Shown: positions 5,880 through 62,227 of the stretch, piece after piece
How positions within the stretch are numbered: the first letter of the stretch is position 1
Layout of the letters: every line of letters starts with the position of its first letter
DNA from: an uncultured Roseicyclus sp.
GTDB lineage: Bacteria > Pseudomonadota > Alphaproteobacteria > Rhodobacterales > Rhodobacteraceae
Assembly: GCA_947494975.1 (NCBI GenBank)
Contig: CANLXA010000003.1
Coordinates: 558,001-622,000 of the forward strand
Direction: 5' to 3'
Length of the DNA stretch: 64,000 nt
Notes under the pieces: model-generated
Told to the model about the DNA's origin: nothing
Databases searched by the model: none
The model's input: only the letters and a program-made list of their open reading frames with translations
Position numbers and translations under genes: made by a program

Positions 5880-6050
5880 ATGGCCTTTGTTTTTCTAAGC
5901 TTCGGCACCTTTGCCCTTGCACTGTTAGGCCTCGCGATCGGCGTTTTATCGGGGCGGACGCCCATCAAAGGCTCCTGTGGCGGCCTGTCCTGCCGAACCA
6001 AAGGCGGTTGCGCCGTCTGTCCGAGCCGAAGATCGGAGGATGCACCGTGA
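5880..6050 (+). CDS. nqrM: NqrM, Na+-NQR maturation factor (56 aa)
   Basis: This short gene has a strong ribosome site (AAAGGAGG, 5 bp before ATG). The product has one N-terminal transmembrane helix (FLSFGTFALALLGLAIGVL) and then GRTPIKGSCGGLSCR followed by GGCAVC, which is the Cys-rich NqrM/DUF539 signature (GRKPIKGSCGG...C..C). NqrM is required in Vibrio for maturation of the NQR complex, probably by delivering iron to NqrD/NqrE. Its position directly after apbE fits. The stop overlaps the next gene's GTG start. It is below common ORF length cut-offs and easily missed. Confidence 0.92.
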   Translation: MAFVFLSFGTFALALLGLAIGVLSGRTPIKGSCGGLSCRTKGGCAVCPSRRSEDAP

Positions 6051-26333: not shown

Positions 26334-27914
26334 CTATTCGACGACCTGGATGTCCATGAACGACTGCCCGCGGAACCGTGAGCCACGCACCGGATCGGGC
26401 ACGCTGATCGATGTCGCATTGAACGCGATGTTCTGGGTCGGCTGGTAGATCGGCACGAACAGATGCTGGCTCAGGACGTATTCATGATAGGCGGTGAAAT
26501 TCGCGATCCGCTCGGCGGAGGTGCTGCTTTCGGTCATCGCCACATCGTTCAGGCGCTGGCCTTCCTCGTCCTCCCACATTGACACGTTGGGGTAGCCCAG
26601 GCGATTGCCGCTGAAGAACCAGTCCAGAATGTCCGAGTTGTTCCAGTCATAGCTTCGCACCGCAAGCTGGTGGGCGTTGTTGCGGTACTCGTCGCGGATC
26701 GTGGAGCTGTCGAAGACCGTGATGATCGCCTCCATCCCGATCTCGCCCAGTTGGGCCTGCACCACCTGCGTCAGTCGGGTCAGTTCCGTCGTGTTGGCAG
26801 TATAAAGGCTGACCGTCAGGCGCTCGTCGCCCATGACGCGCACACCGTCATCGCCCATCACCCATCCGGCCTCGTCCAGCAATTCACCGGCGCGGGCGGG
26901 ATTGTAGGTGACGTTGAGGTCCGGATCCACATCGGCCTCGGGCAGCGACGAGATCAGGAAGTTGTGGGCCGGCGCGCCGACGCCGTTATAGATCGCCGCG
27001 ACGATCCCCTCCTGGTCGATGGCCATGCCCGTCGCCTGCCGCACCAGGATGTTGTCGAAAGGCGGCGCGGTCACGTTGATCGGCATATAGCTGATGCCGA
27101 CGCCGGGCATCTGGATGATCTGGATATTGGCCTCGGCCTCCAGGATCTGGAGGAAGTCGGTGGGTACGCCCAGGAGCAGGTCGATCCCGCCGGTCCGCAA
27201 CTCCAGAAATGCGGTGGATTGGTCGGGGATCTCGCGGAAGGTAAAGGTTTCGATATGGCCCGGTCCGGTGTTTTCGGACAGGTCGGAACCCCAGATGTAG
27301 TCCTCGTTGCGCACAAGGACGGTCTCAAGCCCGATTTCAAAACTCTGGAGCTCGTAGGGCCCGGTGCCCACCGCGGCCGTCACGCCGAAATTGTCGCCCA
27401 GTTCCGCGAAGGCCGTGGGGCTGGGGATGCCCATGAAGGCGCTGGCGAGGTTGTAGAGCAGGTTCGGTTCCGGCCGGTCCATGTTGAAGCGCACCGTCAG
27501 ATCGTCGATCACGTCGACCGACCCGATGGCCTCCACCAGATACTCGTTCTCGGTGCCGGCATAGCTTGCGATCCAGGATTGGACGGCGGCGGCGTTGAAC
27601 GGCGTGTCGTCATGGAATGTCACCCCTTCCAGCAATGAGAAGGTCCAGGCCATGCCGTCCGCGGTTTCCTCCCACGAGGTCGCCAGATGCGGGTGATAGG
27701 ATTGGTCGGCGTCCTGCTCCACCAGCCGGTCATAGATAAGCGAGGTGGCGGTGTTGAGTGTGCTGGCCGCGACGGGATTGTAGGCCGTGGCCCCCAATTC
27801 GCTGGCCGAAAACGCGACTGAGACGTTCTGCGCCATCGCGGCGGCGGAAAACAGCAAACCGGCAGCAACGATAGCCGATCCTGATAGAAGTTGGGTCTTG
27901 GTCGAATATCGCAT
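26334..27914 (-). CDS. ABC transporter periplasmic substrate-binding protein, family 5 (DppA/OppA type)
   Basis: A 526-aa secreted binding protein of the SBP_bac_5 family in normal domain order. A signal peptide (about 1-28, ending AAAMA|QN) is followed by NPVAASTL and LATSWEETADGMAWTF with FHDDTPF near residue 90, and later by LVRQATGMAIDQEGIV and YNPARAGELLDEAGW, the classic C-terminal half. The ATG at 27914 was chosen because it starts the signal peptide and has AGGGAAA upstream; the open frame runs further up into the RpiR gene. It delivers the solute to the DppBCDF machinery downstream. Confidence 0.92.
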   Translation of the reverse strand: MRYSTKTQLLSGSAIVAAGLLFSAAAMAQNVSVAFSASELGATAYNPVAASTLNTATSLIYDRLVEQDADQSYHPHLATSWEETADGMAWTFSLLEGVTFHDDTPFNAAAVQSWIASYAGTENEYLVEAIGSVDVIDDLTVRFNMDRPEPNLLYNLASAFMGIPSPTAFAELGDNFGVTAAVGTGPYELQSFEIGLETVLVRNEDYIWGSDLSENTGPGHIETFTFREIPDQSTAFLELRTGGIDLLLGVPTDFLQILEAEANIQIIQMPGVGISYMPINVTAPPFDNILVRQATGMAIDQEGIVAAIYNGVGAPAHNFLISSLPEADVDPDLNVTYNPARAGELLDEAGWVMGDDGVRVMGDERLTVSLYTANTTELTRLTQVVQAQLGEIGMEAIITVFDSSTIRDEYRNNAHQLAVRSYDWNNSDILDWFFSGNRLGYPNVSMWEDEEGQRLNDVAMTESSTSAERIANFTAYHEYVLSQHLFVPIYQPTQNIAFNATSISVPDPVRGSRFRGQSFMDIQVVE

Positions 27915-27954
27915 GGCAGATTTCCCTGTTATATATATATGTTCTTTGGCAGAC

Positions 27955-28851
27955 TTACGTGGTGCGGCGGCCCTCCCCGCGCGTAGGGGTGGCGTCGCCG
28001 ACATGGCCGGTGAAACGTCCGTGGAGATGGGCGAACTTGTTCATCCGCTCCTCGACCCCGGGGCCAAGCTCCATGAACACGGCGTTGACCAGCAGATTGG
28101 CGAGGCTCGCCATCTGTGCGGTCGATTCCCAGAACAGGTTGACCGCCGTGGGTACGACGAACATCTCGTTCGAAACGGCATGGCCCCAATCGCAATAGGG
28201 GTCGGTGATCAAGGTGACGGGAATACCGGCAGCCTTGGCGTCTTCGGCCAGCATCCGGGCGTGGCGCGAGTAACGACGCGCCTCGAAGATCACAAGCGCG
28301 GCGTCGTTGCCCTCCATCGCGAGGATCTCGGCGAAGTTTCCGGCGGCGAGATCCAGAAGATACACACCTTCGCGCAGATATTGCAGTTGGTTGACGAAGA
28401 TCTGGGCCATGCCGCGTTCGGTCTGGAACCCGGCGGCAAAGACATGCTTCGCCGTGGCCAGCCGCTTGACGGTATCATGCCATTCGGGGCTGTGGGCGGC
28501 TTCGTAAACCGCCACGAGCGCTGCCATTTCAAGCTCCAGCCCGCGCGTCAGCTGGTCTTCACCGGCCTTGGTGCGTTGCTGCAAGTCCCGCAACCGGTCA
28601 CCGATCAACCACGGCTGATCGCCCATGTCATTTTTCAGGTTCTGTTTAAGGTCCTTGAACCCATCATAGCCGATCGACCGGCAGAAGCGGCCAACGGTCG
28701 GCTCGCTCACCGCGACCTTGGCGGCAAGGCTGGCCGCCGTTTCGAAAGGCAGGGTGCCCATATCCGACAACATGTAATTCGCCAACGCGCGATCCGCCTT
28801 CGAGGCGGTTTGCAACGCCTCGGTCAGGCGGTCGCGCAAGGGTTTTGTCAT
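27955..28851 (-). CDS. MurR/RpiR-family transcriptional regulator
   Basis: A 298-aa regulator with an N-terminal RpiR helix-turn-helix (about 1-77; SLAAKVAVSEPTVGRFCRSIGYDGFKDLK) and a SIS domain (about 125-260; GNDAALVIFEARRYSRHA), which normally binds phosphosugars. It is first in the operon with the dipeptide transporter and probably controls it. In such transporter-linked RpiR proteins the SIS ligand is often not a sugar; it could be the imported compound or its product. Start has no strong competitor. Confidence 0.9.
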   Translation of the reverse strand: MTKPLRDRLTEALQTASKADRALANYMLSDMGTLPFETAASLAAKVAVSEPTVGRFCRSIGYDGFKDLKQNLKNDMGDQPWLIGDRLRDLQQRTKAGEDQLTRGLELEMAALVAVYEAAHSPEWHDTVKRLATAKHVFAAGFQTERGMAQIFVNQLQYLREGVYLLDLAAGNFAEILAMEGNDAALVIFEARRYSRHARMLAEDAKAAGIPVTLITDPYCDWGHAVSNEMFVVPTAVNLFWESTAQMASLANLLVNAVFMELGPGVEERMNKFAHLHGRFTGHVGDATPTRGEGRRTT

Positions 28852-38803: not shown

Positions 38804-38804
38804 G

Positions 38805-39578: not shown

Positions 39579-39718
39579 GGCAGCGTCCTTTCGGGTTGAG
39601 CTTCAAGAATTAGAGCACAGCTCAGGACGCTTCTGCGCCAGAGAGGAACGACGGAAACCTAGGAATACCGACAGATTGTAGCTACTATTGACCATTGAGA
39701 TAGGAATAAGGGCATCCG

Positions 39719-40471: not shown

Positions 40472-40475
40472 TCGT

Positions 40476-41780
40476 TCAGGTCAGCCGCGCGAACCCGGCG
40501 TGACAGACCGGCCCCTCCAAAAGGTCCGCAGGGTCGCGCCCATTCTTGCAATCAGCGATCAGCGCAAAGACCGGGTCCAGCGCTTCGAAATAGCCGTCGA
40601 TCACGCCTGGCGTATGGGCGGTGCAGACATAGACGCTGGTGCCGGCAAGGTAGCCCGCCTTCAGCATCTCCTGCGCGATCAGTGTCTTGTAGACTAGGGC
40701 ATCGGGCCCACCAAAGGAAAACCCCGTCAACGCGGGCAGGCCCGCCACATTGATGTCCAGCCCATGCGTGTCCGCCAGCCCTTTCCAACGCTCGCCAATC
40801 GCACGACCGGTCTGTGTGATGACATCCCACGACGCGCAGGCCTCCATCGCGTCGAGTGTAGCGAGGGCGGCGACAGAGCCGATCCGCTCGGTCCAGAAGG
40901 TGGAACTGATGAAGGTGCTTTGCGCCGCTTCCATCACCGCGCGCCGCCCGATCACAGCGGTGACCGCGTAGCCATTGCCCAACGCCTTACCGAACACCGC
41001 AAGGTCGGGGTCAACGCCATGGACCTTGTGCAAACCACCAAATGCCTGCCGGAACCCCGACGTGCATTCATCGAATATCAGAACGATCCCATGGGCATCC
41101 GCAAGGGCGCGGACGGCTTGCAGGAACCCGGGCGCCGGTGGCCCGCTGCGCTGCACCTCCATCTTGATAACGCCGATGGACTGCTCGGCGATCAATCGCT
41201 CGAGGCCCTCCAGATCGTTGTAAGAGAAAGGAAACACCGTTCCCGCAAGATCTCGGGGCACCCCGGCGGGCGCCAGCCCCGGCAGCAGGTGCCCGTCCAG
41301 CCGATCCGCATCGCCCAGATTTGCAGCCAAATACCAGTCATGCCACCCGTGATAGCCGCACAACGCCACGCCGTCGCGACCGGAAGCCGCGCGCCCGATC
41401 CGCACCGCGATGGCATTCGCCTCCCCCCCGCTCCGGGCGAACCGCGCCATGTCGGCCCAGGGATGCAGGTCGATCAGGCGTTCGGCGAGCAGAACTTCGT
41501 CGGGCGCGTTCAGTGTGGACATGTTGCCCGCATCGATCACGCCGCGTACCGCCGCATCAACCTGCTTGTGGCCATAACCGAGCGTATTTGTCCCAACGCT
41601 CATGAGCGACATATCGGTCAACGCGCGCCCGTCCATGTCCCAGACCGTGACTCCGGAGGCGCGCGAAAAATAGGCAGGCCAGGCGCCGGGCAGGTGCATC
41701 TCGGGCCGTTTCGACAGCAACATGTTCCCGCCCGGGATCACTGCCTTGGCGCGCTCCCAAAGATCCTGCCCCTTGCGCAT
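40476..41780 (-). CDS. Class-III aminotransferase (GSA aminomutase-like)
   Basis: A 434-aa fold-type I PLP enzyme related to glutamate-1-semialdehyde aminomutase and other class-III transaminases. Features: YFSRASGVTVWDMDG, RSGGEANAIAVRIGRAAS, GYHGWHDWYLA (aromatic PLP stacking), IFDECTSGFR (Asp for pyridine N) and VFGKALGNGYAVTAVIG with the PLP Lys. In a catabolic cluster it is more likely an amino-sugar or amino-acid transaminase than a heme-pathway enzyme. It shares a divergent promoter, with a GntR-like site, with the amidohydrolase at 41846. Confidence 0.88.
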   Translation of the reverse strand: MRKGQDLWERAKAVIPGGNMLLSKRPEMHLPGAWPAYFSRASGVTVWDMDGRALTDMSLMSVGTNTLGYGHKQVDAAVRGVIDAGNMSTLNAPDEVLLAERLIDLHPWADMARFARSGGEANAIAVRIGRAASGRDGVALCGYHGWHDWYLAANLGDADRLDGHLLPGLAPAGVPRDLAGTVFPFSYNDLEGLERLIAEQSIGVIKMEVQRSGPPAPGFLQAVRALADAHGIVLIFDECTSGFRQAFGGLHKVHGVDPDLAVFGKALGNGYAVTAVIGRRAVMEAAQSTFISSTFWTERIGSVAALATLDAMEACASWDVITQTGRAIGERWKGLADTHGLDINVAGLPALTGFSFGGPDALVYKTLIAQEMLKAGYLAGTSVYVCTAHTPGVIDGYFEALDPVFALIADCKNGRDPADLLEGPVCHAGFARLT

Positions 41781-41845: not shown

Positions 41846-42877
41846 ATGACGAACCTGCCTTGGACACCAACGCCGCTCGATGCGCGGATCTGGGAAGAAG
41901 AGCTTGACGCCTTCGTGCCAAACCGCATCTTCGACGTGCACACCCATCTGCACGACTGGTCCCATTATGCCGACCCCGCCAAGGAGGCGGGTCCCTATGC
42001 CGCGACCATCGGCACCCATTTCCCGCGCTCAGACCGCGCGGTTGCCGATGCCGTTGACGCAAGCCTGATGCCCGGCCGCATCGTTGACCGGCTCTCCTTC
42101 CCCTATCCCTACCCGAAACCGATGGGTGTGGACGCCGCCAACGCGCTGGTCGCGGCCGAGGTTACGCAAGGGTCCGCCGGTCTGATGCTGGTGCACCCTG
42201 AGATGACACCCGATGCGATCCGCGCGACGTTGCGCCAAACGGGCCTTATCGGTCTGAAGCCATACCTGGTTTACGCTCAGGGATCCGCACCCGCCGATGC
42301 CGGGATCACCGATTTTCTGCCCGAGGCGCAGATCGCCCTGGCTGACGAATTGGGCCTGATCATCATGATGCACCTCTCCAAACGCGACGCTGTGGCCGAT
42401 CCCGACAACATCGACGATCTGCTGCGCCTGACGGCCCGCTACCCCAACGCCAAATGGATCCTGGCCCATTGTGCGCGCAGCTATTCCGTCTGGGCCATCG
42501 AGGCGGCAGCCTCTGCCCTGCGCGACATTCCCAACATCTGGTACGACACCTCCACGGTCTGCGAGGCCGACGCGCTTGATGCGCTTTATACCGGTGTCGG
42601 CGTGGAGCGGGTCATGTATGGCAGCGATGATCTGATCGGCCCGATGCGGGGAAAATATGTAGCGTTCGGACGGGCGTGGAGCCTGCTGCATCCGGGCAAT
42701 CACAGCCTGTCGCTTGGCCATTGCAACCCGGACATGACCTTTATCCGCTATGAGCAGCTGCGCGCGATGAAGCGCGGCGCGCGGCAGATCGGCCTAACGA
42801 GGGCGCAGCGACGGGCCCTGTTTCACGATACCGCACGCGCCCTTGTTGATAGCGTGCCCAAACCCGGCACGGCTTAG
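41846..42877 (+). CDS. Amidohydrolase-family (metal-dependent TIM-barrel) protein
   Basis: A 343-aa member of the amidohydrolase-2 group. Metal ligands appear as His-x-His in IFDVHTHLHDWSHY, His in IMMHLSKRD, His in WILAHCARSYS and Asp in VMYGSDDLIGPM. These enzymes decarboxylate, hydrolyse lactones or deaminate rings; the family does not fix a substrate. It is divergent from the aminotransferase and convergent with the NanA/DapA-like gene (stops overlap by four bases). Confidence 0.86.
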   Translation: MTNLPWTPTPLDARIWEEELDAFVPNRIFDVHTHLHDWSHYADPAKEAGPYAATIGTHFPRSDRAVADAVDASLMPGRIVDRLSFPYPYPKPMGVDAANALVAAEVTQGSAGLMLVHPEMTPDAIRATLRQTGLIGLKPYLVYAQGSAPADAGITDFLPEAQIALADELGLIIMMHLSKRDAVADPDNIDDLLRLTARYPNAKWILAHCARSYSVWAIEAAASALRDIPNIWYDTSTVCEADALDALYTGVGVERVMYGSDDLIGPMRGKYVAFGRAWSLLHPGNHSLSLGHCNPDMTFIRYEQLRAMKRGARQIGLTRAQRRALFHDTARALVDSVPKPGTA

Positions 42878-43803
42878 AGATCGTCGAGGAACCCGATCCC
42901 CGTGAGGCCCTGTGCATCCCGAAACGCGCGATAGCTGTCCTTCAGCGCCTCTTCCTGCTCTGGCGTCTCGTAATTGTCGAACGGTTTGCGACAATACCCG
43001 GCGTCGGCGCCTTGCCACGCCATGATCCGTTTGACCGCCGACATCGGATACTGTTTCAGCGTGAAAAAGATGATGTCATTGGCCTTGTCTTGCAGGGCCT
43101 TGGCATCGTCCAAACGCCCGTCAGCCATCGCCTTGATCAAGTCGGCATAGAGCTCTGGGATGATGTTGTAGAACGACCCTATCAATCCATCCGCACCGAA
43201 TGCGAGGCCAGACATGGCCATCTCATCGGCGCCGGAGAACACGCGGAACTCTGGCCCGATCTCGCGTTTCATCCGACCGATCTCAAAATGCGTGGGCGCG
43301 GTGTATTTGACGCCTTCAATCCCGTCGATCGCCGCCAGCCGCGCGAGCATGTCGAAGCCAAGGGCACCGGCCAGCGTGATATTGTAGGCCACCATTGGCA
43401 ATCCGGTCGACGCCGTGACATCCCGGTAATAATTCGTCACCTGATCGGGGGAAAAGGGCCAATAGATCGGCGGCACCGAGGAGATCGCGTCGGCCCCCGC
43501 TGCCTCTGCCTGCTGCGCCAGCGCCACGGTCTGATAGGTGCTGATCGCGCCCACATGGACCATCACGGGCACGCGCCCCGCCACCTCGTCGCAGGCAATC
43601 TGGACGACGCGCATCCGTTCTTCCGGGCTCATCATGAACCCCTCCCCTGTGGAGCCGGTGAGGTAGAGGCCGTCCACGCCGCGCGCTAGAAGTGACGCGG
43701 TCAAGCCACGCGTTAAGCCTTCGTTCAGCGTGCCGTCCAGATCGAACGCTGTGACGAGCGCAGGGATGACCCCTTTGAAATCGGTCATGGAATAATTGGC
43801 CAT
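42874..43803 (-). CDS. N-acetylneuraminate lyase/DapA-family aldolase
   Basis: A 309-aa class-I aldolase closer in pattern to NanA than to DapA. GLYLTGSTGEGFMMS is the substrate loop, PMVAYNITLAG the Tyr motif and IEGVKYTAPTHFEIGRM has the Schiff-base Lys followed by YTA as in sialic-acid lyases; the YxxY/F-like pattern there favours NanA. SGADEM is also typical. The start is ATG 43803; an inner ATG at 43788 is possible. It is the last gene after the ABC operon, so its product probably cleaves the imported sugar acid to pyruvate and an amino sugar. Confidence 0.86.
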   Translation of the reverse strand: MANYSMTDFKGVIPALVTAFDLDGTLNEGLTRGLTASLLARGVDGLYLTGSTGEGFMMSPEERMRVVQIACDEVAGRVPVMVHVGAISTYQTVALAQQAEAAGADAISSVPPIYWPFSPDQVTNYYRDVTASTGLPMVAYNITLAGALGFDMLARLAAIDGIEGVKYTAPTHFEIGRMKREIGPEFRVFSGADEMAMSGLAFGADGLIGSFYNIIPELYADLIKAMADGRLDDAKALQDKANDIIFFTLKQYPMSAVKRIMAWQGADAGYCRKPFDNYETPEQEEALKDSYRAFRDAQGLTGIGFLDDL

Positions 43804-43838: not shown

Positions 43839-44855
43839 TCAGTCCGCGAGGGGTTGATCGATCAGGTGACAGGCCGCCATGTGTACGCCCGACCCGGCCC
43901 TGTACGCCCGGAGGCGGGGCACATCGCTTCGGCAGACGTCTTGCGCAAACCGGCAGCGTGGATGGAAGGGGCAGCCCGAGGGCGGATTGATCGGGCTCGG
44001 CACATCGCCTTGCAGGACGATGCGCTGGGACTTGCGGTCCAGATCCGCGACGGGGATCGCCGACAGCAGGGCCTGCGTGTAGGGATGCAGCGTGTTGGAA
44101 TAGAGCTCCTCGGCATCGCAAAGCTCCACCACCTTGCCCAGATACATCACGGCGATCCGGTCGCAGAGATATTCCGTGACGCTCAGATCATGGGTGATGA
44201 AGACATAGGTGAGGTTTTTCTCACGCTTGAGATCCATCAGCAATTGCAGGACCTGCGCCTGGATCGAGACGTCCAGCGCGCTGACCGCCTCATCGCAAAC
44301 GATCAGTTCAGGATCGATGCTCAGCGCGCGGGCGATGCCGATGCGCTGACGTTGCCCGCCCGAAAACTCGTGCGGATAGCGGTCCATCGCCTCGCGGCGC
44401 ATGTTTACGGCCTCCAGCAGATCGCCCACGATCTTGCGTCGCTTCGCTCGGGTTTTCACACCGTAATGGCGCAGCGGATCCTCCAACGAACCAAAGATGG
44501 TGAAGGCCGGGTTCAGCGAGGAATGGGGATCCTGAAAGACGATCTGCAACCGTTTGCGGAAGGCGAACAGCCCTGCCTCATCCTGTGTCGTCAGCTCCGT
44601 CTCGCCGTCCTCTCCGGAATAAGTCACGGTCCCTTGCGTCGCGCGCACCAGCTGCAGGATCGCCTTGCCAAGCGTGGTCTTGCCACAGCCGCTTTCGCCC
44701 ACAAGACCCAGAACCTCGCCGCGATAGACGTCCAGATCTACACCATCGACGGCACGAACATGGGCCGTCACGCGCTTGAGCACACCGGTCCGAACCGGGA
44801 AATGCACCTCGACATTGCGAAGACTCAGGATCGGATCACCGGCCATTGGATGCAA
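43839..44855 (-). CDS. ABC transporter ATPase, DppF/OppF type
   Basis: A 338-aa ATPase. Walker A GESGCGKTT, signature HEFSGGQRQRIGIARAL, Walker B LIVCDEAVSALD, H-loop ITHDLS. C-terminal peptide-transporter extension with INPPSGCPFHPRCRFAQDVC. The Walker B Pro of DEPTSALD is replaced by Ala (DEAVSALD), a known variation in the group. Overlaps the DppD gene by about 20 bp; a second ATG (44846) would reduce that. Powers the transporter whose binding protein is permuted. Confidence 0.92.
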   Translation of the reverse strand: MHPMAGDPILSLRNVEVHFPVRTGVLKRVTAHVRAVDGVDLDVYRGEVLGLVGESGCGKTTLGKAILQLVRATQGTVTYSGEDGETELTTQDEAGLFAFRKRLQIVFQDPHSSLNPAFTIFGSLEDPLRHYGVKTRAKRRKIVGDLLEAVNMRREAMDRYPHEFSGGQRQRIGIARALSIDPELIVCDEAVSALDVSIQAQVLQLLMDLKREKNLTYVFITHDLSVTEYLCDRIAVMYLGKVVELCDAEELYSNTLHPYTQALLSAIPVADLDRKSQRIVLQGDVPSPINPPSGCPFHPRCRFAQDVCRSDVPRLRAYRAGSGVHMAACHLIDQPLAD

Positions 44856-45843
44856 ACTCCTGATAGCGCCAGCACATCACGCGGTGATCGTCGGACACCT
44901 GAGTTTCGGGGGGCATCTCATCACATTTGTCGATCCTGTGCATACAGCGATCCGCAAACTGGCAGCCTTTAGGCCGGTCGTAGGGATCGGGTGTCTGGCC
45001 GGGGATCGCCTTGATCTCCTGATCCTTACCGCGGCCCAGAACCGGGATCGAGTCCAGAAGCGCGCGGGTGTAGGGATGCACGGGATTGCGCATGACGGTG
45101 CCCACCGGGCCCGCTTCAACGATATTGCCCATATACATCACGGCCACATCATCGGCCAATTCAGCCACCACGCCCATATCGTGGGTGATCAACATGATCG
45201 CGGTGCCATTGTCGCGTTTGAGCGTCTCCATCAGCTCGAAAATCTGGGCCTGGATCGTGACGTCAAGCGCGGTCGTGGGCTCGTCCGCGATGAGGATGCG
45301 CGGGTTGCACGACATTGCGATGGCAATCATCGCGCGCTGCCGCATGCCACCGGAGTAAAGGTGGGGGTAGTCGTTCACACGCCGTTCCGGCAGCGGGATC
45401 CCCATCGACGCCAGCAGATCGATGGCCTTGTCGTGGCGCGCCCTGCGGCCCAGGCCCGTGTGATACATCAGCATTTCCTTGATCTGGAAGCCGATGGAGT
45501 AGACCGGGTTCAGGGCCGTCATCGGGTCCTGAAAGATCATCGCAATCTCTTTGCCACGGATGCTGCGCATCTGAGCGCCGCCACGATCCAGCGCATCGAT
45601 CCGTACCGGGCCGTCGGGGCCGTGATAGGTGATCTCGCCCTCCTCGATCCGGCTGAGCGTCGGCAAAAGCTGCATGATGGAGGCGGCGGTCACGCTCTTG
45701 CCGCAGCCACTTTCACCCACGATGCACAGCGTCTTGCCCTGCCGGATCTCGAACGACACGCCGTCAATGGCACGATTACAGCGGTTGTTGTTGTAGAAGT
45801 ATGTCTTGAGGCCCTTCACTGTCAGGGCGACGTCATGTTCCAT
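44836..45843 (-). CDS. ABC transporter ATPase, DppD/OppD type
   Basis: A 335-aa ATPase. Walker A GESGCGKS, signature YSGGMRQRAMIAIAM, Walker B ILIADEPTTALD, H-loop ITHDMG. C-terminal extension has PYDRPKGCQFADRC with further Cys (MHRIDKC). It is spaced 4 bp behind the DppC stop. Partner of the DppF-type ATPase. Its N-terminus KTYFYNNNRCNRAIDG is slightly unusual in being Asn-rich. Confidence 0.92.
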   Translation of the reverse strand: MEHDVALTVKGLKTYFYNNNRCNRAIDGVSFEIRQGKTLCIVGESGCGKSVTAASIMQLLPTLSRIEEGEITYHGPDGPVRIDALDRGGAQMRSIRGKEIAMIFQDPMTALNPVYSIGFQIKEMLMYHTGLGRRARHDKAIDLLASMGIPLPERRVNDYPHLYSGGMRQRAMIAIAMSCNPRILIADEPTTALDVTIQAQIFELMETLKRDNGTAIMLITHDMGVVAELADDVAVMYMGNIVEAGPVGTVMRNPVHPYTRALLDSIPVLGRGKDQEIKAIPGQTPDPYDRPKGCQFADRCMHRIDKCDEMPPETQVSDDHRVMCWRYQEFASNGR

Positions 45844-45847
45844 GCCC

Positions 45848-46783
45848 CTACCCCTGCTGCGACGGATCGGTTGCGTCCCGCAAGCCGTCGCCGATGAAAT
45901 TCACGCTCAGCACGAAGAGCGAAATCGTGGCGCCCACCGGCAGCCAGATCCACCAGTTCTGCTCAAGCACCCGCAAATCCTGCGCGGCGTTCAAAATGTT
46001 GCCCCATGTCGGGATCGAAAGCGGCACACCAAGGCCCAGAAAGCTCAGGCCCGCTTCTTGCAAGATGAACGCAGCCGTCGACAGGGTGATGTTGACCATG
46101 ATGGGCCCGAGCGCATTGGGCAGCATGTGTTTGTAGGCGATGCGCGCGGGGCCAAGGCCGAAGCTGCGCAGGGCCTGCACATACTCCTCCTCACGGATCG
46201 AGAGCATCCGCGCCCGCGCCATTCGGTAAATGCCGCCCCATCCCGTCAGAGTGAAAATGACGATAAGATTCAACAGCGACTGGCCGAGGATCGCCACCAG
46301 CAGCAGGACCAGAATAATCTGCGGAAACGACATGAAGATCTCGGACACACGCATCGCGATCCAATCGAGCCATCCGCCGACATATCCCGAATACACGCCG
46401 ATGATCACGCCGATCAAAGCCGACAGGAGGGCACTGCCCAGGCCCACGAGGATCGACACGCGGCCGCCATAGAGCACGCGGGCAAAGATATCGCGGCCGG
46501 TCTTGTCGGTTCCGAACCAGTGTTCGACCGACGGCGGCTGCGCGATTGCGCGCAGGTTTGGCGACATCGGATCATGTTGCGCAAGCAGCGGCGCAAACAG
46601 GCTCATCAGGCAGATGATCGCAAAGATGACGAAACCCACAAGCGCCAACCGATTGCTGAGGAACTTGCCGAGGAACCGGCCCCCGCGTTTGGCTTTGCCC
46701 TGCATCGATGTTTCGCGGTCACGCAGCCGGTCGAACTGGCCGTCCCGTCGGGTTCTTGGCCGGGTAATGGGCGCGTCGACCAT
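45848..46783 (-). CDS. ABC transporter permease, DppC type
   Basis: A 311-aa permease with a ~40-residue charged cytoplasmic lead and about six helices. EHWFGTDKTGRDIFARVLYGGR is the OppC N-terminal box; EEYVQALRSFGLGPARIAYK is the EAA loop. It begins 4 bp after the DppB gene. Forms the heterodimeric channel with DppB. Confidence 0.92.
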   Translation of the reverse strand: MVDAPITRPRTRRDGQFDRLRDRETSMQGKAKRGGRFLGKFLSNRLALVGFVIFAIICLMSLFAPLLAQHDPMSPNLRAIAQPPSVEHWFGTDKTGRDIFARVLYGGRVSILVGLGSALLSALIGVIIGVYSGYVGGWLDWIAMRVSEIFMSFPQIILVLLLVAILGQSLLNLIVIFTLTGWGGIYRMARARMLSIREEEYVQALRSFGLGPARIAYKHMLPNALGPIMVNITLSTAAFILQEAGLSFLGLGVPLSIPTWGNILNAAQDLRVLEQNWWIWLPVGATISLFVLSVNFIGDGLRDATDPSQQG

Positions 46784-46787
46784 ATCC

Positions 46788-47750
46788 CTACTCCCCCAAC
46801 CGGACGCGTGGATCGATAATCGCCGTCAGCAGATCGACGATCAGGCTGGCGATCAGCACCGCCAGCACCGAGAACAGGGCCACCATCATCACAAGTGGGT
46901 AGTCCTGGCTGCGCACGGCGGAGACGAACTCCTTGCCGATGCCCGGCCACTGAAACACCTGCTCGATGATGACGGAGCCACCGATCAGGACAGGCAGCCG
47001 AAAACCGATCAACACGATCACGGGCGTGAGGGCCACACGAAACCCATGCAGGATATTGACCCGCCACTCCGGCATCCCCTTGGACCGGGCGGTCCGGATG
47101 AAATCACGGCTGAGCGCATCGAGCATGGAGGACCGCGCATAGCGCATCACCCCCGCGGTCATCATGATCGACAGCACGAGGGCCGGCATCACAAGATTGG
47201 GCAACCGATCCCAGAAACTGTCATACCCCGGCAGGGTCCGTCCGCCCACCGGCAACCAATCAAGGTTGATGGCGAAGACGAGGATCGCCACGAGGCCAAA
47301 GAAGAACTCCGGGATGGACACGCCAAGCATGCCCACCACCGTTAGCCCCTGATCCGTCGCGCTGCCCCGCGTGAGCGCGCTGATAGTGCCGAGAATGGAG
47401 CCCAGGATGGTCGAGATCAAAAGGGCCGCGAATGACAGTTCAAGCGTGGCTGGCAATCGATCCAGAAAGATATCGGCAATCGGGACACCGCCCGCCAGGC
47501 TATAGCCGAAATCGCCCTGAACGACGCCAGAGATCCAGATCCAGTAGCGCACAAAAAACGGCTGACCAAGCCCAAGGCTTTCCCGCAATTCCTGAAGGCG
47601 ATCGGGATCCATCGAGCCGTAGGCATCGGGCGGGATCATGTGCGAAACGGCGTCCCCCGGGGTCAGCTCAAGTCCGAGGTAAATCAGAAAACTGATGACG
47701 ATCACCATCGGGATCAGGGTCAGCAATCTGTGGGCGATATAGGTGAGCAT
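46788..47750 (-). CDS. ABC transporter permease, DppB type
   Basis: A 320-aa permease starting LTYIAHRLLTLIPMVIVISF. Six helices, EAA loop DFIRTARSKGMPEWRVNILH, C-terminal block QWPGIGKEFVSAVRSQDYPLVM. The gene follows the binding-protein stop by about 100 bp that contains a perfect 12-bp hairpin, so it may be expressed at a lower level than the binding protein. Confidence 0.93.
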   Translation of the reverse strand: MLTYIAHRLLTLIPMVIVISFLIYLGLELTPGDAVSHMIPPDAYGSMDPDRLQELRESLGLGQPFFVRYWIWISGVVQGDFGYSLAGGVPIADIFLDRLPATLELSFAALLISTILGSILGTISALTRGSATDQGLTVVGMLGVSIPEFFFGLVAILVFAINLDWLPVGGRTLPGYDSFWDRLPNLVMPALVLSIMMTAGVMRYARSSMLDALSRDFIRTARSKGMPEWRVNILHGFRVALTPVIVLIGFRLPVLIGGSVIIEQVFQWPGIGKEFVSAVRSQDYPLVMMVALFSVLAVLIASLIVDLLTAIIDPRVRLGE

Positions 47751-47848: not shown

Positions 47849-49468
47849 TTAGTTGCGCGGGAACTGGTTGATCCAGAACATCCGCGTGTAGGGGATGTTT
47901 GCCGGGATCACCGTCATATGCTCCATCTCTTCCAGCGACGGCACGTCCGTCGCATTTTTCGAATAGCCGAAATCGGCGCGGAAGGCGGCCGCGTTGCGGA
48001 TCAGGTTCGCATCCCCATCTGCCGACGGCAAGGCGATGATCTGCTCAATCAGAGCTTCACCACGATGGTAGTCCGGGAACGGCACCAGGGTTGTGAATTC
48101 GTTCATCCGGGCCTCTTCAATCATGAACGGGCCAGATCCGATGGGCATCTGCCAGAACTCGTGTTGTTGAAGCTGCAGGGGATCGGCCCCCTCGAAGTAG
48201 GAACTCGGCAACGGTGCGAATTGGGTGAATGACAAAAAGACATTCGGATCAAGCACCTCGAACGTGATCGTCACGGTGTTGCCGTCGATGGAGATGCCGC
48301 TCATGTTGTCGGCATCACCGGCCAGCAAGGCATCCGCCCCTTCGATGCTTGAAAGGGTCGACGCGAGGACCGGGTGCGTCAGCGGGAACTGCGCCGCCGC
48401 CTCGATGCTCCATTGCACGTCCTCGGCGGTAATCGGCGAGCCGTCATGCCATGTCAGCCCGTCCTGCAGCGTGAAGGTGAAGACCAGCCCGTCTTCCGAG
48501 ACCTCGTAGGTTTCGGCCAACTCACCGCCGATGGGCGTAAGGGCTCCATCCGCCTCAAGGATGGTGTCGAAGACGTATTTGCTGTGCACCCAGATGCCGA
48601 GGTTTTGCCACGGCACCTCGAAAAACTGCATCGGTGCCCCGTTGGTATAGGCGACCGCTTCGCCGTCCTCATTCGGCTCGACTGTCCAAGTCTCGATGGC
48701 CGAGTTGTAATTGTACTGCTCGTTGCCGTAGGGCGCGCCGTTTCGATTAATCCGGTCGCTCTCAAAAATGTAGAGCTGCTGGTAATAGAGCGGCAGGATA
48801 TAGGCACCCTCATTGATGATGCCCTCCATCTCCTGATACCCGGCACGCTGAACCTCGGGATCAGTGGTTGCATTCACGCTTTCAACCAGCGGCACCATGG
48901 CATCGATTGTTGGCACGGTCGGCATCTGGCCGGGCGCAAAGCGGTTAAAGTATTCCTGGTTGGCGATCGCGGCCCGCGCGCCGTAGAGAATATCCCATTC
49001 CACGACCGCTGGCCCATTGACCGGATCGTCTGGCACACCGCCGATTTGCGCGCCCACATCGCCTTCCAGCAGGCGATAGTTCATGTCGATGCCCACGTCG
49101 GCCAACTGAGCCTGCACAACCGCCATGAAGTTCGCCGTCAACTCATCCGGGTAGTAGTAGACCATATCAAGAGTACGGCTTCCGTCCCATCCCGCCTCTG
49201 CCAGCAATTCACGGGCGCGCTCGGGGTCATAGGAATAAGTGTTCATGCCATCGGGGTAATTGGCAGGGTCTGATGTCAGGCCGACGGCCGGGATCGCGGC
49301 CCCCTCGAACAGGGTTTCCGCAATCGTCTCCATATCGATGGCGTAGGCAATCGCCTGACGGACACGCGGATCCGACAGCTCGCTATCGTTGATCGCTTGG
49401 GCCGTCGCACCACCGGCAACCTGCGCTGAAACCAAAGCCATGATGGATGTTGTAAGTAGCTTATTCAT
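47849..49468 (-). CDS. Circularly permuted family-5 ABC substrate-binding protein
   Basis: A 539-aa exported protein assembled from SBP_bac_5 sequence in swapped order. After a signal peptide (about 1-24) come the family's C-terminal-half motifs: SDPRVRQAIAYAIDMETI (about 32-49), YSYDPERARELLAEAGW (about 77-95) and ILPLYYQQLYIFESDRI (about 225-240). A joint near 255-290 follows. Then come N-terminal-half motifs: GGELAETYEVSEDGLVFTF (about 315), DGLTWHDGSPITAEDVQW (about 335-352), GSGPFMIEEA (about 450) and MFWINQFPRN at the end. In the normal family the last phrase is directly followed by the DPRVRQAI phrase. Total length is normal, without a stop or frameshift. It probably still folds, with new termini in the hinge. 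First gene of the ABC-NanA operon. Confidence 0.85.
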   Translation of the reverse strand: MNKLLTTSIMALVSAQVAGGATAQAINDSELSDPRVRQAIAYAIDMETIAETLFEGAAIPAVGLTSDPANYPDGMNTYSYDPERARELLAEAGWDGSRTLDMVYYYPDELTANFMAVVQAQLADVGIDMNYRLLEGDVGAQIGGVPDDPVNGPAVVEWDILYGARAAIANQEYFNRFAPGQMPTVPTIDAMVPLVESVNATTDPEVQRAGYQEMEGIINEGAYILPLYYQQLYIFESDRINRNGAPYGNEQYNYNSAIETWTVEPNEDGEAVAYTNGAPMQFFEVPWQNLGIWVHSKYVFDTILEADGALTPIGGELAETYEVSEDGLVFTFTLQDGLTWHDGSPITAEDVQWSIEAAAQFPLTHPVLASTLSSIEGADALLAGDADNMSGISIDGNTVTITFEVLDPNVFLSFTQFAPLPSSYFEGADPLQLQQHEFWQMPIGSGPFMIEEARMNEFTTLVPFPDYHRGEALIEQIIALPSADGDANLIRNAAAFRADFGYSKNATDVPSLEEMEHMTVIPANIPYTRMFWINQFPRN

Positions 49469-49776: not shown

Positions 49777-50802
49777 ATGGATTCAGGGAAACGCAACGTT
49801 CTGATCGTCGGTGTCGGCGGCATCGGAAGGCGCCACATCAAGGGGTATCTGGAGACCGGGCGGGCGGATCTGACCCTGATCGAACCGGATGCGGCCAAAC
49901 GGGCCGCGGTGGTCGCGGAATTTGCCACTGTGGCGGCTTATGAGAACCTCGGACAGGCCGATTTGGCGGATTATGATCTTGCGGTGATCTGCACACCGGC
50001 CAATTTTCACGTCGAAATGATGGAAGCCTGTGCGGCGGCGAAACTGCCGTTTCTGGTGGAAAAACCGCTAGCAGTGACATTGGATGGGGTCGATGCGGCC
50101 ATCGCCGCCGTGGCCCGCGCCGGTATCCTGGCCCGTGTCGGCTACATCCGGCGGATCGCGCCCGAGGTGATCCATCTGCGCGCGCAGATCGATGCGGGCA
50201 AGATCGGAGCATTGAAGCTCGCCTATCTCAACAGTTCGCAGGATTTCGGCAAGTATCGTCCTGATTACCGGACAACCTATTACGCGCGCCCCGATATGGG
50301 CGGCGGCGCGATTCTGGATGCGGCCAGCCACAGCTTTGACATGCTGATCTCGATCATGGGGCGGCCGGTGACGGTGGGCGCGATGTATGATCGGCTCAAA
50401 CTCGACGGAAGCGAGACCGAGGATACCTGTCTGATCTCGGTCCGGTTCGCCAGTGGTGCCATGGCAAATCTCACCATCAACCAATTCCAAAAACGTAACG
50501 TCGCGTCGGCCGAATTCATCGGAACCAGCGGTAATCTCAAACTGGACCACGCAACGCTCAGTTTTGCGGACGACGACAGTGGGCATTGGTTGGAACAGCG
50601 CGACTTCATGGAGGGTATGGTGCCGATGCAGGCCCATCAGGCGCGGTTCACCATGCAGGCCGACACCATGCTCGATGCGTTGGATGGCAAGCCCGACCCT
50701 TTGGCCACCCTGTCTGATGCGCGCACCAACCTTTCGCTGGCGTTGGCGGCCAAACAATCCTGGGTCGAGCGCCGCTTCGTCGATCTGGACGCCGCGTCAT
50801 GA
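49777..50802 (+). CDS. Gfo/Idh/MocA-family oxidoreductase
   Basis: A 341-aa NAD(P)-dependent sugar-type dehydrogenase. Rossmann motif VLIVGVGGIGRRH; PFLVEKPLAVTL carries the conserved Glu-Lys-Pro; AILDAASHSFDMLISIMG the catalytic-site His. First gene of a six-gene plus-strand operon (49.8-55.4 kb), divergent from the ABC operon. Likely oxidises a sugar or sugar acid hydroxyl. Start ATG has GGAGGGG upstream. Confidence 0.9.
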   Translation: MDSGKRNVLIVGVGGIGRRHIKGYLETGRADLTLIEPDAAKRAAVVAEFATVAAYENLGQADLADYDLAVICTPANFHVEMMEACAAAKLPFLVEKPLAVTLDGVDAAIAAVARAGILARVGYIRRIAPEVIHLRAQIDAGKIGALKLAYLNSSQDFGKYRPDYRTTYYARPDMGGGAILDAASHSFDMLISIMGRPVTVGAMYDRLKLDGSETEDTCLISVRFASGAMANLTINQFQKRNVASAEFIGTSGNLKLDHATLSFADDDSGHWLEQRDFMEGMVPMQAHQARFTMQADTMLDALDGKPDPLATLSDARTNLSLALAAKQSWVERRFVDLDAAS

Positions 50803-51569
50803 ACCTCTTTTCGATGGTTGGAAAGACGGTGCTGATTGCGGGTGGCGCGGGCTATCTGGGCCTGCCGGTATGCGAAGCGTTGCGCGCGCATGGCGCGAGC
50901 CTGTGCATTGCGGACCAACATGCCGAACGCCTTGCCGAGGCAAAAGCGACTCTGGACGCGCAGCCCGGCGAAGGAACCGTCACCACTCACCGCATCGACA
51001 TGGGCGATGAGGCGACGATCCTGGCCTGCGTGGCTGAATGTGGCGACCTGCATGGCCTTGTCATGGCAACGGCCGGGTCCAGCAACACACATTTCGACCG
51101 GCTTGAGGCCGCTGACTTCGACCGCTCGAACCGCATAAACCTGACGGGCACGTTTCTTCTGGCGCGCGCGGCGGCCAAGGTGATGCCGCGGGGCGGTGCG
51201 ATGGTGTTTTATGGCTCTATGTACGGTGTCGTCGCCCCCGACCCCACGAACTACCCCGGCGACATGCCCCCCAACCCGGTCGACTATGGCGCGGGCAAGG
51301 CGGGGATCGGCCAGATGGCCCGCTACATGGCCAGCCATTACGGGCGGCGCGACATACGCGTGAACGCGATCGCGCCGGGGCCTTTTCCGCCGAAGGCCGT
51401 GCAGGATGCCAATCCGGAATTCATAACCAACCTCACCCGCGACACGATGATGGGCCGCATGGGGGAACGCCATGAAACCGCAGGCGCGGTGGTGTTCCTG
51501 CTGTCAGACGCGGCAAGCTATGTCACCGGCCAGGTTCTGGGCGTCGATGGAGGATGGACGGCATGGTAG
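50799..51569 (+). CDS. SDR-family dehydrogenase
   Basis: A 256-aa SDR with a slightly altered dinucleotide motif (VLIAGGAGYLGLPVC). Ser and Tyr-x-x-x-Lys are in VFYGSMYG and NPVDYGAGKAG, separated by a ~20-residue insert (VAPDPTNYPGDMPPN) seen again in the SDR at 52528. C-terminus YVTGQVLGVDGGWTAW. Starts with a four-base overlap on the Gfo/Idh gene. Likely handles a sugar-derived ketone; the insert may shape the substrate pocket. Confidence 0.88.
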   Translation: MNLFSMVGKTVLIAGGAGYLGLPVCEALRAHGASLCIADQHAERLAEAKATLDAQPGEGTVTTHRIDMGDEATILACVAECGDLHGLVMATAGSSNTHFDRLEAADFDRSNRINLTGTFLLARAAAKVMPRGGAMVFYGSMYGVVAPDPTNYPGDMPPNPVDYGAGKAGIGQMARYMASHYGRRDIRVNAIAPGPFPPKAVQDANPEFITNLTRDTMMGRMGERHETAGAVVFLLSDAASYVTGQVLGVDGGWTAW

Positions 51570-52528
51570 CGTTTCCCTTGGGTGACAGGCCCCTGCGGCT
51601 CGCGATGCTCGGCATGACGGAAGGCAACGGCCACCCCTATTCCTGGAGCATCATCATCAACGGCAGCTATGACGCCGCCGCGCTGGCCGATTGCCCCTAC
51701 GCCACGATCCGCGACTACATCGCCAAGCAGCCGCCCGACACACTAGGGATCGAGGGCGCTCAGGTCACGCATGTCTGGACAGACGATCCCGCCGATGCGG
51801 CGCAAGTCGCCGCTGTTGCCCATATCCCCAACGTCGTGGACCGCGCCGAGGATGTTATCGGCCATGTCGACGCTGTGGTGATCGCGACCGATATCGGACA
51901 CCAGCACGTCGCCCGCGCGCGGCCTTTCGTTGAGGCCGGCATCCCGGTGTTCATCGACAAACCGCTTTGCGACAACCGCGCCGATCTGCAGCAATTCTCA
52001 AAATGGGCGGCGGAGGGCCATCCGATCCTCAGCTCATCCGCCATGCGCTACGCCAAGGAGTTCGCCCCCTTCCACACCAGCACCCATGAATTCGGCGCCT
52101 TGCGGCACGTCACCATGACCATGGCCAAGAAGTGGGAAACCTACGGCATTCACGCATTGGAAACGATCCTGCCGATCACCGGGCCGGGTTTCGTCAGCGT
52201 CCGCAACACCGGTACGTTTGAGCGAAACATCGTCCACCTGAACCACCGCAACGGGATCGACGTAACGATTTCCGTCATCGCGGACCAGATCGGCGGCGCC
52301 GGTTTTCTGACACTGGCGGGGACGAAGGGCGGTGTGCAATTGCGGTCACAGGACACCTACCATGCTTTCAAGGCGCAACTTGTCGGCGTTGTCGACTGGC
52401 TGCGCAGCGGTATCCCACCGGTGCCGTGGTCCGAGACGCAGGAGCTGATGAAGCTTGTCATCGCGGGCATTGAGAGCCGCGAAAATGGTGGCATTGAAAT
52501 CCAGTTGACCGACATCGAGGCAGGCTGA
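51563..52528 (+). CDS. Gfo/Idh/MocA-family oxidoreductase
   Basis: A 321-aa divergent Gfo/Idh-type dehydrogenase. RLAMLGMTEGNGHPYSW replaces the usual GxGxxG; later VDAVVIATDIGHQH and PVFIDKPLCDN keep the family pattern, and KKWETYGIHALETILPI holds the active-site His. The ATG at 51563 was chosen because GGAGG (51549-51553) is 9 bp upstream, whereas the earlier ATG (51554) touches it. It overlaps the SDR stop and the next SDR start, so all are coupled. Confidence 0.87.
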   Translation: MVAFPLGDRPLRLAMLGMTEGNGHPYSWSIIINGSYDAAALADCPYATIRDYIAKQPPDTLGIEGAQVTHVWTDDPADAAQVAAVAHIPNVVDRAEDVIGHVDAVVIATDIGHQHVARARPFVEAGIPVFIDKPLCDNRADLQQFSKWAAEGHPILSSSAMRYAKEFAPFHTSTHEFGALRHVTMTMAKKWETYGIHALETILPITGPGFVSVRNTGTFERNIVHLNHRNGIDVTISVIADQIGGAGFLTLAGTKGGVQLRSQDTYHAFKAQLVGVVDWLRSGIPPVPWSETQELMKLVIAGIESRENGGIEIQLTDIEAG

Positions 52529-53316
52529 TGAAAGGTGTGATGGAGACCCTGAACCTGACCGGGAAAGTGGCGCTGGTGACTGGTGGTGCGGGGCTTTACG
52601 GTCGCCAGATTGTCGCTGCCTTGGCCGAGGCTGGGGCCACGACCTATATCGCATCGCGCGGGATCGAGGCCCTTGAAGCCGTGGCGCGGGAAGAGCGCGG
52701 GCGCGGGTTTGATGTGCGTGCCCTGCCCCTTGATCTGGGCGATCAGTCCTCCATCGACACGCTTGCCACTCAGATCGCTGAGGAGACCGACGGCTGCGAT
52801 ATCCTTGTCAACAATGCCGTCACACGGAACCCCGCCGCGCTCTGGGGCGGGCCGATGGATGCCTATGACGAAGCGTTGCGCGTCAACGCGTCCTCGCTTT
52901 TTTATCTCACCCACCTGATCTCCGAGGGAATGAAAAGCCGTGGCCGCGGCTCGATCATCAACATCGGCTCGATGATGGGCACTGTTGGGGTGGAGCCCGC
53001 AAATTATGTCGGCACCAACATGCACGACAATCCATCGCCGCTCTATTTCTACGAAAAGGGTGGGATGCAGAACTTCAGCCGTTGGGCCGCCAGCATTCTT
53101 GGACCCCACGGCATACGGGTGAATTGCGTGGCACCTGGTGGCTTTTTCACCGGCCAACCCGCCCCTTTCGTCGCCGCCTATTCTGAGCGGACACAGCTTG
53201 GGCGGATGGCAAACGAGACCGATCTCAAAGGTATCATCGTCTTTCTCGCCTCCGATGCGTCGGCATACATCACGGGTGCCAATATCCCCGTCGACGGCGG
53301 CTACACCGCGAAATAA
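52528..53316 (+). CDS. SDR-family dehydrogenase
   Basis: A 262-aa SDR: ALVTGGAGLYGRQIV, DILVNNAVTRNP, Ser in NIGSMMG, and YFYEKGG as Tyr-x-x-x-Lys after an insert similar to that of the SDR at 50799; C-terminus YITGANIPVDGGYTAK. Overlaps the previous stop by one base. Two SDR/Gfo-Idh pairs in series suggest that oxidation at one carbon and reduction at another (epimerisation) is part of the pathway; that is inference. Confidence 0.88.
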   Translation: MKGVMETLNLTGKVALVTGGAGLYGRQIVAALAEAGATTYIASRGIEALEAVAREERGRGFDVRALPLDLGDQSSIDTLATQIAEETDGCDILVNNAVTRNPAALWGGPMDAYDEALRVNASSLFYLTHLISEGMKSRGRGSIINIGSMMGTVGVEPANYVGTNMHDNPSPLYFYEKGGMQNFSRWAASILGPHGIRVNCVAPGGFFTGQPAPFVAAYSERTQLGRMANETDLKGIIVFLASDASAYITGANIPVDGGYTAK

Positions 53317-53331
53317 TCAAGGACTTTTGCC

Positions 53332-54138
53332 ATGGCCGACCCCTATTCAGCGCAAACTCCCGGTCCCTTCGCGCTGCGCCGCAGCCGCGTGTTGCGCAAG
53401 ATCCGCGACGGCAAAGTTGCCCGCGTGCTGAAGCTGAACACCACCGATCCGAAAGTCGCCGAGATCTTCGCCAGCGCCCAACCCGATGCGATCTGGCTGT
53501 GCATGGAGCATGTGGGGGCCACCTGGTCGGACATCGAACACCAGATCCGCGCCGCACGTATCCACGACGTGGACACCGTCTTGCGTGTCGCGCGCGGCAG
53601 TTACAGCGACTATGTCCGCGGCCTGGAGCTCGACGCGACGGGGCTTATCGTGCCTCATGTGATGAATGAAGAAGACGCCACAAATATAAGAAATTACACG
53701 AAATTTTATCCTTTAGGACGACGCGCCGTCGATGGCGGGAACGCCGATGCCCAGTTCACCCGCGTCGGCATTCTGGACTACATGAAGCAAGCGAATGCGG
53801 AGCGGTTCATTTGCCACCAGATCGAGGATCCGGAGGCTGTCGAAAACCTTGAGCCCATCGCCGAGATCGATGGAGTGGATTGCCTGTTCTTTGGCCCCGG
53901 TGACTACTCCGTCGCCCTCGGCATCCCCGGGCAACTGGACCACCCTGACATCGAAAACGTCCGCCGCCGTGTGGCCGAGGTGGCGCGCAAGAACGGCAAG
54001 ATCGCCGCAACGGTTTGCGCGCAGCCCAATATCGGCACCTACGCCGATATGGGCTATAATTTCCTGAGCGTGGGCGCGGATGTGATTGCCTTGGTCAATT
54101 ACGCCGACGCTGCAATGGCGGCTTTCGGAGACCTCTGA
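53332..54138 (+). CDS. HpcH/HpaI-family aldolase
   Basis: A 268-aa class-II pyruvate aldolase (2-keto-3-deoxy-sugar acid aldolase type). AIWLCMEHVGATWSDIEHQI, RFICHQIEDPEAVEN and VDCLFFGPGDYSVALG are the metal Glu, the second Glu and the Asp motif. Splits a 2-keto-3-deoxy acid into pyruvate and an aldehyde. In bases about 53678-53720 (residues ATNIRNYTKFYPLGRR) the codons turn abruptly AT-rich (AAT ATA AGA ... TTT TAT CCT TTA), unlike the rest of the gene, though the amino acids fit the family. Confidence 0.9.
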   Translation: MADPYSAQTPGPFALRRSRVLRKIRDGKVARVLKLNTTDPKVAEIFASAQPDAIWLCMEHVGATWSDIEHQIRAARIHDVDTVLRVARGSYSDYVRGLELDATGLIVPHVMNEEDATNIRNYTKFYPLGRRAVDGGNADAQFTRVGILDYMKQANAERFICHQIEDPEAVENLEPIAEIDGVDCLFFGPGDYSVALGIPGQLDHPDIENVRRRVAEVARKNGKIAATVCAQPNIGTYADMGYNFLSVGADVIALVNYADAAMAAFGDL

Positions 54139-62202: not shown

Positions 62203-62227
62203 GGCCGAGCCTTCCCAAAGCGGCGGG

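Follow-up and report, generated by a model that had tools for sequence, protein, structure and literature searches.

Circular permutants of proteins have been made in the laboratory, for example for biosensors. Among natural substrate-binding proteins (SBPs), circular permutation has been described for TpMglB-2 (Tp0684) of Treponema pallidum ('Cluster Bc'), which binds glucose and changes shape and in which the permutation of a cluster B fold adds a fourth crossing between the lobes (PMC4990184). Glycine-betaine- and molybdate-binding proteins are also SBPs related by permutation; these pairs share <24% identity, and their relationship was seen by structure (CPSARST, PMC2395249). SatA of the SatABCD system of Haemophilus ducreyi is an SBP that is related to oligopeptide-binding proteins and is sialic acid-specific (PMC10017367).

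Here, we analyzed an SBP gene at 47849-49468 in the window (the whole stretch of DNA under study, 64,000 nucleotides) of an uncultured Roseicyclus sp. We conclude, with a probability of about 0.86, that this gene, referred to as type A, encodes a naturally circularly permuted cluster C SBP of an Opp/Dpp-type ABC importer; this figure covers the permutation and the role as an SBP but neither the ligand nor the proposed single lobe crossing. Like TpMglB-2, the type A SBP is linked to ABC import and shares its topology with homologues in other bacteria. It differs in that it belongs to cluster C and in that one of its two lobe crossings seems to be open-ended; judged by sequence, it does not have the cluster B fold, as only PF00496 matched at E values up to 0.1. 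In contrast to the glycine-betaine/molybdate pairs, its permutation is evident from the sequence, and a clade can be proposed as its likely ancestor. E. coli DppA shares its fold family and transporter type but has the normal order and a dipeptide ligand. SatA also has the normal order and matched only modestly (residues 31-94 of the type A query to 5z99). Natural permutants are known in cluster B; cluster C permutants, and the occurrence of two forms in one genome, would be new. Our search of the literature, which was limited to openly licensed (CC) PMC papers, found no report of a permuted cluster C SBP.

The two halves of the type A SBP are in exchanged order

The initial annotation had proposed that this exported protein carries the halves of an SBP_bac_5 protein in swapped order and had suggested a profile alignment as a check. 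The minus-strand open reading frame is real and starts with a plain signal peptide as judged by eye. In a Pfam search, PF00496 matched in two stretches (197.4 bits for the whole protein; cut-off 32.4), and a genome scan placed profile positions 209-326 upstream of positions 4-208 in a single open frame, each above the cut-off. Thus, the halves do not follow the canonical N-to-C order of the profile. Against PDB chains, residues 24-129 of the protein corresponded to residues 269-379 of E. coli DppA and residues 300-478 to residues 33-215; among the best 60 of 86, 60 of 102, and 60 of 95 matches in the PDB sequence search, the best stretch per chain never spanned the new junction.

We compared the protein locally with the SBPs of its own genome, E. 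coli DppA, and four plasmid SBPs. In native order, it gave the exchanged pairing with all 18 other distinct SBPs that it matched; one of these, L008, is itself permuted (see below). After re-ordering, its alignment was continuous for 16 of 19 proteins and still in two or three stretches for L015, L016, and L021. The paired native matches to L061 (72.0 and 64.5 bits), L060 (68.4 and 62.0 bits), and DppA (42.1 and 30.0 bits) became single alignments of 139.7, 141.2, and 77.1 bits, respectively. This change from two-piece to one-piece alignments is what a clean circular permutation predicts. Similarly, 346 plasmid records had one place covering at least 80% of the re-ordered query versus 1 for the native order. 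The profile order, the DppA matches, and the one-piece alignments bear out the proposed swap.

On a canonical HMM (18 canonical proteins, 523 positions), the type A SBP aligned to positions 287-519 and then to positions 57-284; positions 1-56, which comprise the leader and the first N-terminal segment, were mostly covered only by direct alignment with L060, L061, and L063. Together, the two parts cover the canonical chain in exchanged order, as is found in a natural permutant. The SBP_bac_5 protein encoded at 26334 had been named as an internal control, and it does have the normal order (Table 1). As a warning, profile searches that expect one ordered match split permutants of this kind: Pfam reported two stretches and NCBIfam models two or three.

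Table 1. Coordinates of the type A SBP, its parts, and the genes discussed in the text
Feature	Position	Strand	Remarks
Type A SBP ORF	47849-49468	-	539 aa; SBP_bac_5/cluster C
Signal peptide, residues 1-24 (MNKLLTTSIMALVSAQVAGGATAQ)	49397..49468	-	From translation, by eye; most family members have a similar leader
Residues 25-264, canonical C-terminal part (domain III and last lobe 1 segment)	48677..49396	-	HMM 287-519
New N-terminal edge, residues 26-33 (INDSELSD)	49370..49393	-	Resembles the Asn segment kept at the C-terminus
Linker of old C- and N-termini, residues 265-270 (PNEDGE)	48659..48676	-	P265 and G269 identical in all 23 aligned sequences
Residues 271-539, canonical N-terminal part (rest of lobe 1), now C-terminal	47849..48658	-	HMM 57-284; stop codon included
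C-terminal segment, residues 526-539 (PYTRMFWINQFPRN); first inter-lobe crossing strand, now chain end	47852..47893	-	From YejA/DppA alignment
DppB-like permease, Opp/Dpp type	46788..47750	-	Follows the SBP in 26 of 27 loci; in the other, the contig ends there
DppC-like permease, Opp/Dpp type	45848..46783	-	
DppD-like ATPase	44836..45843	-	
DppF-like ATPase	43839..44855	-	
N-acetylneuraminate-lyase-like (NanA-like) protein	42874..43776	-	Closes the operon; found in 23 of 27 loci
Divergent Gfo/Idh, SDR, Gfo/Idh, SDR genes	49777..53316	+	Conserved with the permuted SBP
HpaI-like aldolase of the divergent cluster	53332..54138	+	
Control SBP_bac_5, canonical order	26334..28004	-	One stretch, PF00496 2-352
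L008, second permuted SBP_bac_5 (type B), 551 aa	L008:1186-2841; contig C4, ~770.5-772.2 kb	-	Own genome

New termini lie at one homologous point of the canonical chain

As the initial annotation had stated, the C-terminal family parts come directly after the signal peptide (Table 1). The N-terminus of the type A SBP starts just before the first domain III helix, LSDPRVRQAI, and the C-terminal PYTRMFWINQF corresponds in the alignment to the YejA and DppA strand leading into lobe 2, in agreement with the view that the last residues, MFWINQFPRN, normally run into DPRVRQAI. For the analysis of conservation, we used an alignment of 23 sequences, i.e., the protein itself and 22 of 23 open loci from other assemblies (see below), with the intact L043 left out. 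In this alignment, P526, Y527, T528, R529, W532, and N534 of the C-terminal segment are invariant. At the old ends, TWTVE is connected to AVAYTN through PNEDGE. A linker of about 40 residues had been placed at 255-290; in our alignments it shrinks to ~6 residues (265-270), and the remainder aligns with the old C- and N-terminal segments. The new junction is kept in all 23 sequences, with YGNEQY among the invariant residues.

In the nine family A sequences, the N-terminus starts at HMM positions 282-287 and the C-terminus ends at positions 277-287; for the 47849-49468 protein, these positions are 287 and 284, respectively. The new ends thus nearly coincide, and the claim that the halves join head to tail holds: the old termini are joined, and the new termini lie at one homologous point, as in a natural permutant.

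In oligopeptide-binding proteins, the N- and C-termini are close together, and the YejA paper places the lobe boundary at 286/287 (PMC10924461). In the EppA paper, the hinge consists of two strands and the domains are delimited differently from those in the YejA paper (PMC7312458). The signal peptide would direct the type A SBP to the periplasm, where the proximity of its old termini would allow an ordinary Venus-flytrap fold. By sequence, the chain runs through lobe 2, then lobe 1, and then into the crossing strand as the chain end. The cut falls just after the first crossing strand. This would leave one closed crossing and, with the YejA boundary, a second in which the strand is the chain end. 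This strand may dock back into lobe 2 with no covalent continuation, so that the protein would have one closed lobe crossing instead of two, a suggestion that depends on a lobe boundary drawn differently in the two papers.

Structure prediction for the type A SBP gave a pLDDT of 58.3 with the 23-sequence alignment and 37.3 with the single sequence. In the former, low-confidence model, only the canonical N-lobe part matched known SBPs (cluster C chains) well; residues 280-445 matched residues 23-205 of 8upi (Z 14.2, rmsd 3.2, 143 residues), as expected for an exchanged order.

The type A SBP is conserved in other assemblies

In one scan of GTDB genomes, we identified 27 loci in other assemblies that carry a type A SBP with 52-98% identity. 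Their hosts are Devosia, several Rhodobacteraceae, and Roseitalea as well as MAGs labelled Alphaproteobacteria, Caenibius, Acidobacteria, and Spirochaetes. Of these loci, 23 are open over the full match, 3 are fragments at contig ends (L045, L046, and L048), and 1 (L044) is frameshifted. An assembly error had been raised as a concern for this locus, and the existence of the broken copy L044 could be taken to fit a misassembly or two broken genes read as one. Because independent assemblies carry the type A SBP, usually in the same operon, with 23 loci open and the junction conserved in the 23 aligned sequences, both possibilities are effectively excluded.

Two Devosia loci depart from the common pattern. 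In Devosia algicola (L044, 6001-7613), the permuted gene is in three pieces in different frames and the operon is otherwise present; this break is either a pseudogene or a sequencing error. In Devosia rhodophyticola (L037, about 5914-6060), no recognisable in-frame signal peptide precedes LSDIRVRHAIAYAIDM, possibly as a result of a small frameshift or a sequencing error. The Acidobacteria and Spirochaetes labels may be binning errors. L024, from the MAG labelled Acidobacteria, hardly differs from L022 and L023 in the alignment, suggesting that its contig was placed in the wrong bin. L041, from the MAG labelled Spirochaetes, has the permuted SBP, permeases, and ATPases and neither NanA nor the Gfo/Idh cluster in 13.5 kb; its genome has one junction-spanning match among four.

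With its own genome counted, the type A SBP is present in 3 of 13 genomes of the genus (E up to 1e-30) and, at E up to 1e-120, in 4 of 295 genomes of the family and 2 of 385 of the class. No close canonical sister was detected among the best three candidates per genome in the 385 class genomes: up to an E value of 1e-45, every match of the re-ordered query was to a permuted protein and came in two pieces. Its best plasmid relatives are ~30% identical. A viral pattern scan matched one contig, and profile scans confirmed no relative on viral contigs.

Whole-gene dN/dS of the type A SBP was 0.032 (L030), 0.066 (L038), 0.097 (L022), 0.126 (L025), and 0.059 (L050). In 4 of 4 comparisons, the SBP had a higher value than the DppB-like permease (0.032/0.026, 0.066/0.031, 0.097/0.059, and 0.126/0.076). 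Where measurable, constraint on the junction is similar (0 to 0.125; saturated against L022), and the last 20 codons reached 0.50 against L025, a value based on very few sites. Purifying selection together with conservation of the operon suggests that the type A SBP is functional.

Family A groups with canonical SBPs of similar operons

We built a tree of 46 sequences, comprising 28 re-ordered permuted proteins (9 of family A and 19 of type B) and 18 canonical proteins, several of which have long branches. Family A forms one clade (100/100) that groups with the canonical SBPs of Rhizobium ruizarguesonis (L060), Deinococcus psychrotolerans (L061), and Pelagibacterium sp. H642 (L063) (99/99). 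These three are 27-29% identical to the re-ordered type A SBP over 475-481 columns. Their operons resemble the type A operon in having Opp/Dpp-type permeases and DHDPS-family genes, but their SBPs have the normal order; a FadR/GntR regulator lies upstream, and an N-acetylneuraminate epimerase is annotated near L061. In L033, a FadR/GntR-like regulator upstream of the permuted gene is 24% identical to the L063 regulator.

A rival reading is a reversed fusion, in which the C-terminal half of one SBP gene was joined in exchanged order to the N-terminal half of another. When we analyzed the halves apart (34 of the 46 rows), a quick tree placed the N-part of family A away from L060/L061/L063 on a long stem (2.04), with the C-part grouping with them. 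However, the best tree of a careful search groups both halves there, strongly for the C-part (99/95.9) and weakly for the N-part (65/60). Moreover, the new ends almost coincide on the canonical chain; unrelated pieces fused together would show this only by coincidence, and we regard a reversed fusion as improbable.

Permutation by duplication is the standard model, and fission followed by refusion is a further known route (PMC3320104). In the latter, the gene would first have split in two, and the pieces would then have been rejoined the other way round. Among the 27 loci, however, there are no separate half genes, the fragments L045, L046, and L048 ending at contig ends, and an Asn segment is found at both new ends in most members, as predicted by duplication but not by fission. 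Fission and refusion is therefore an unlikely origin. The Asn segment is seen as I-N or V-N before LSD in 21 of 23 aligned N-termini (the exceptions being YNEKNPLSD in L041 and TRDPLSD in L037) and as I/F-N-x-x-P/A near the C-terminus in 21 of 23 sequences; the fuller I-N-x-x-P occurs at the N-terminus in only 10 of 23. This terminal redundancy around the crossing-strand Asn, which is too short for proof, fits permutation by duplication.

We consider tandem duplication followed by trimming the likeliest route. The initial annotation had proposed a tandem duplication with loss of both ends; the short Asn segment at both ends is in its favor, but no tandem intermediate was seen, and no remnant of a tandem copy was detected in the flanks of the 47849-49468 gene and of 9 of the 27 loci. 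A match in the upstream flank of L033 (E 0.005) was considered as such a remnant; it lies inside the FadR/GntR-like regulator and was taken as chance. Three further flank matches had E values of 0.2 or worse.

A second permuted SBP in the same genome has a different cut

The genome encodes 15 SBP_bac_5 proteins, of which 13 are canonical and 2 permuted. In the second permuted protein (L008; type B), profile positions 289-366 precede positions 2-285; the smaller piece alone is below the cut-off (27.3 bits, E 4.3e-6), and the exchanged pairing recurs with many SBPs of its own genome and with DppA. L008 is cut inside domain III, at about HMM position 358/372. At E up to 1e-80, type B is present in 9 of 290 genomes of the family, its own included, and the 8 others are 35-67% identical. 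In its own genome, the type B operon contains permeases, ATPases, and hydantoinase A and B, with an Asp/Glu/hydantoin racemase beside it; the neighbours of other type B loci vary.

To survey permutants more broadly, we used a composite profile, A2, made of the old C-terminal part followed by the old N-terminal part, and scored the best 8 or 11 candidates per genome. In 240 class genomes, A2 gave at least 11 junction-spanning matches in at least 10 genomes at E values of 5e-52 or better. The other matches listed, set off by a clear gap, had E values of 5e-35 or worse and mostly covered one part; those in G317 and G349 also span the junction. Among these 240 genomes, the type B cut point is found in at least 10 and the type A cut point in at least 2, the own genome counting in both. 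In 170 genomes of the phylum, likewise limited to the best 8 or 11 candidates in each genome, the two permutants of the own genome were alone in spanning the junction at E up to 1e-32, a threshold at which weaker permutants would escape notice. A few of the A2 matches listed start at profile positions 123-139, e.g., in G307 and G482.

All 19 type B sequences fall in a single clade (100/99). Forcing types A and B together made the tree 26.7 log units worse (p-AU 0.025, for a group named after seeing the tree), which favors two separate permutation events, although it does not prove them. The DppA/OppA family thus appears to have been permuted by nature twice, and selection has kept the result. 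Tentatively, cluster C SBPs may tolerate permutation repeatedly, with at least two independent events at different cuts in conserved families of Alphaproteobacteria, and the hinge dynamics or sugar-acid release of the type A SBP, with its single closed crossing and docked C-terminal strand, may differ. These proteins offer a natural test of the role of chain connectivity and the hinge in Venus-flytrap closure and in hand-over to the permease.

The type A operon encodes an Opp/Dpp-type importer and a NanA-like lyase

The type A SBP is encoded together with an Opp/Dpp-type permease pair and two ATPases (Table 1), and in the 27 loci this order of SBP, permease, permease, ATPase, and ATPase holds as far as the contigs extend. 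The initial description of a complete Dpp-type operon is right for these genes but left out the NanA-like lyase gene; 'Dpp-type' here denotes the transporter class of the operon, not a ligand. One could argue that the permuted protein has lost its transport role and now acts as a sensor or chaperone, as a chaperone-like activity has been reported for OppA (PMC7442780). Since, as far as contigs extend, the gene always heads a complete ABC operon, we consider this very improbable and favor a permuted SBP that serves the importer.

The NanA-like protein scored below both curated cut-offs (PRK04147, 241.4 bits, cut-off 281; TIGR00683, 214.4 bits, cut-off 382). Three of the four loci that lack NanA are cut by contig ends, the fourth being L041. 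The divergent Gfo/Idh gene is present in 23 of 27 loci; again, three others are cut by contig ends and L041 lacks it. With the operon ending in a NanA-like gene, our best guess from the neighbour genes is that the type A SBP more probably binds a sialic-acid-like or other sugar acid than a peptide. The SBP would hand the putative sugar acid to the adjacent permeases, and the NanA-like lyase would then cleave it.

Several further genes lie nearby. A NagA-like gene at 57685 scored 196.5 bits (cut-off 225.65). Near it, on the minus strand, are a weak BNR-repeat (sialidase-like) protein (61111-62343) and, adjoining it, an MFS-type protein with HEAT repeats (58874-61114, minus strand); these two may be part of the same catabolic region. 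Near the NanA-like gene, 37880-41780 contains a second DHDPS-family gene, a PhyH-type dioxygenase, an HTH_18 regulator, and a class III aminotransferase; the last of these comes directly after NanA in L037, L039, L040, L042, and L044.
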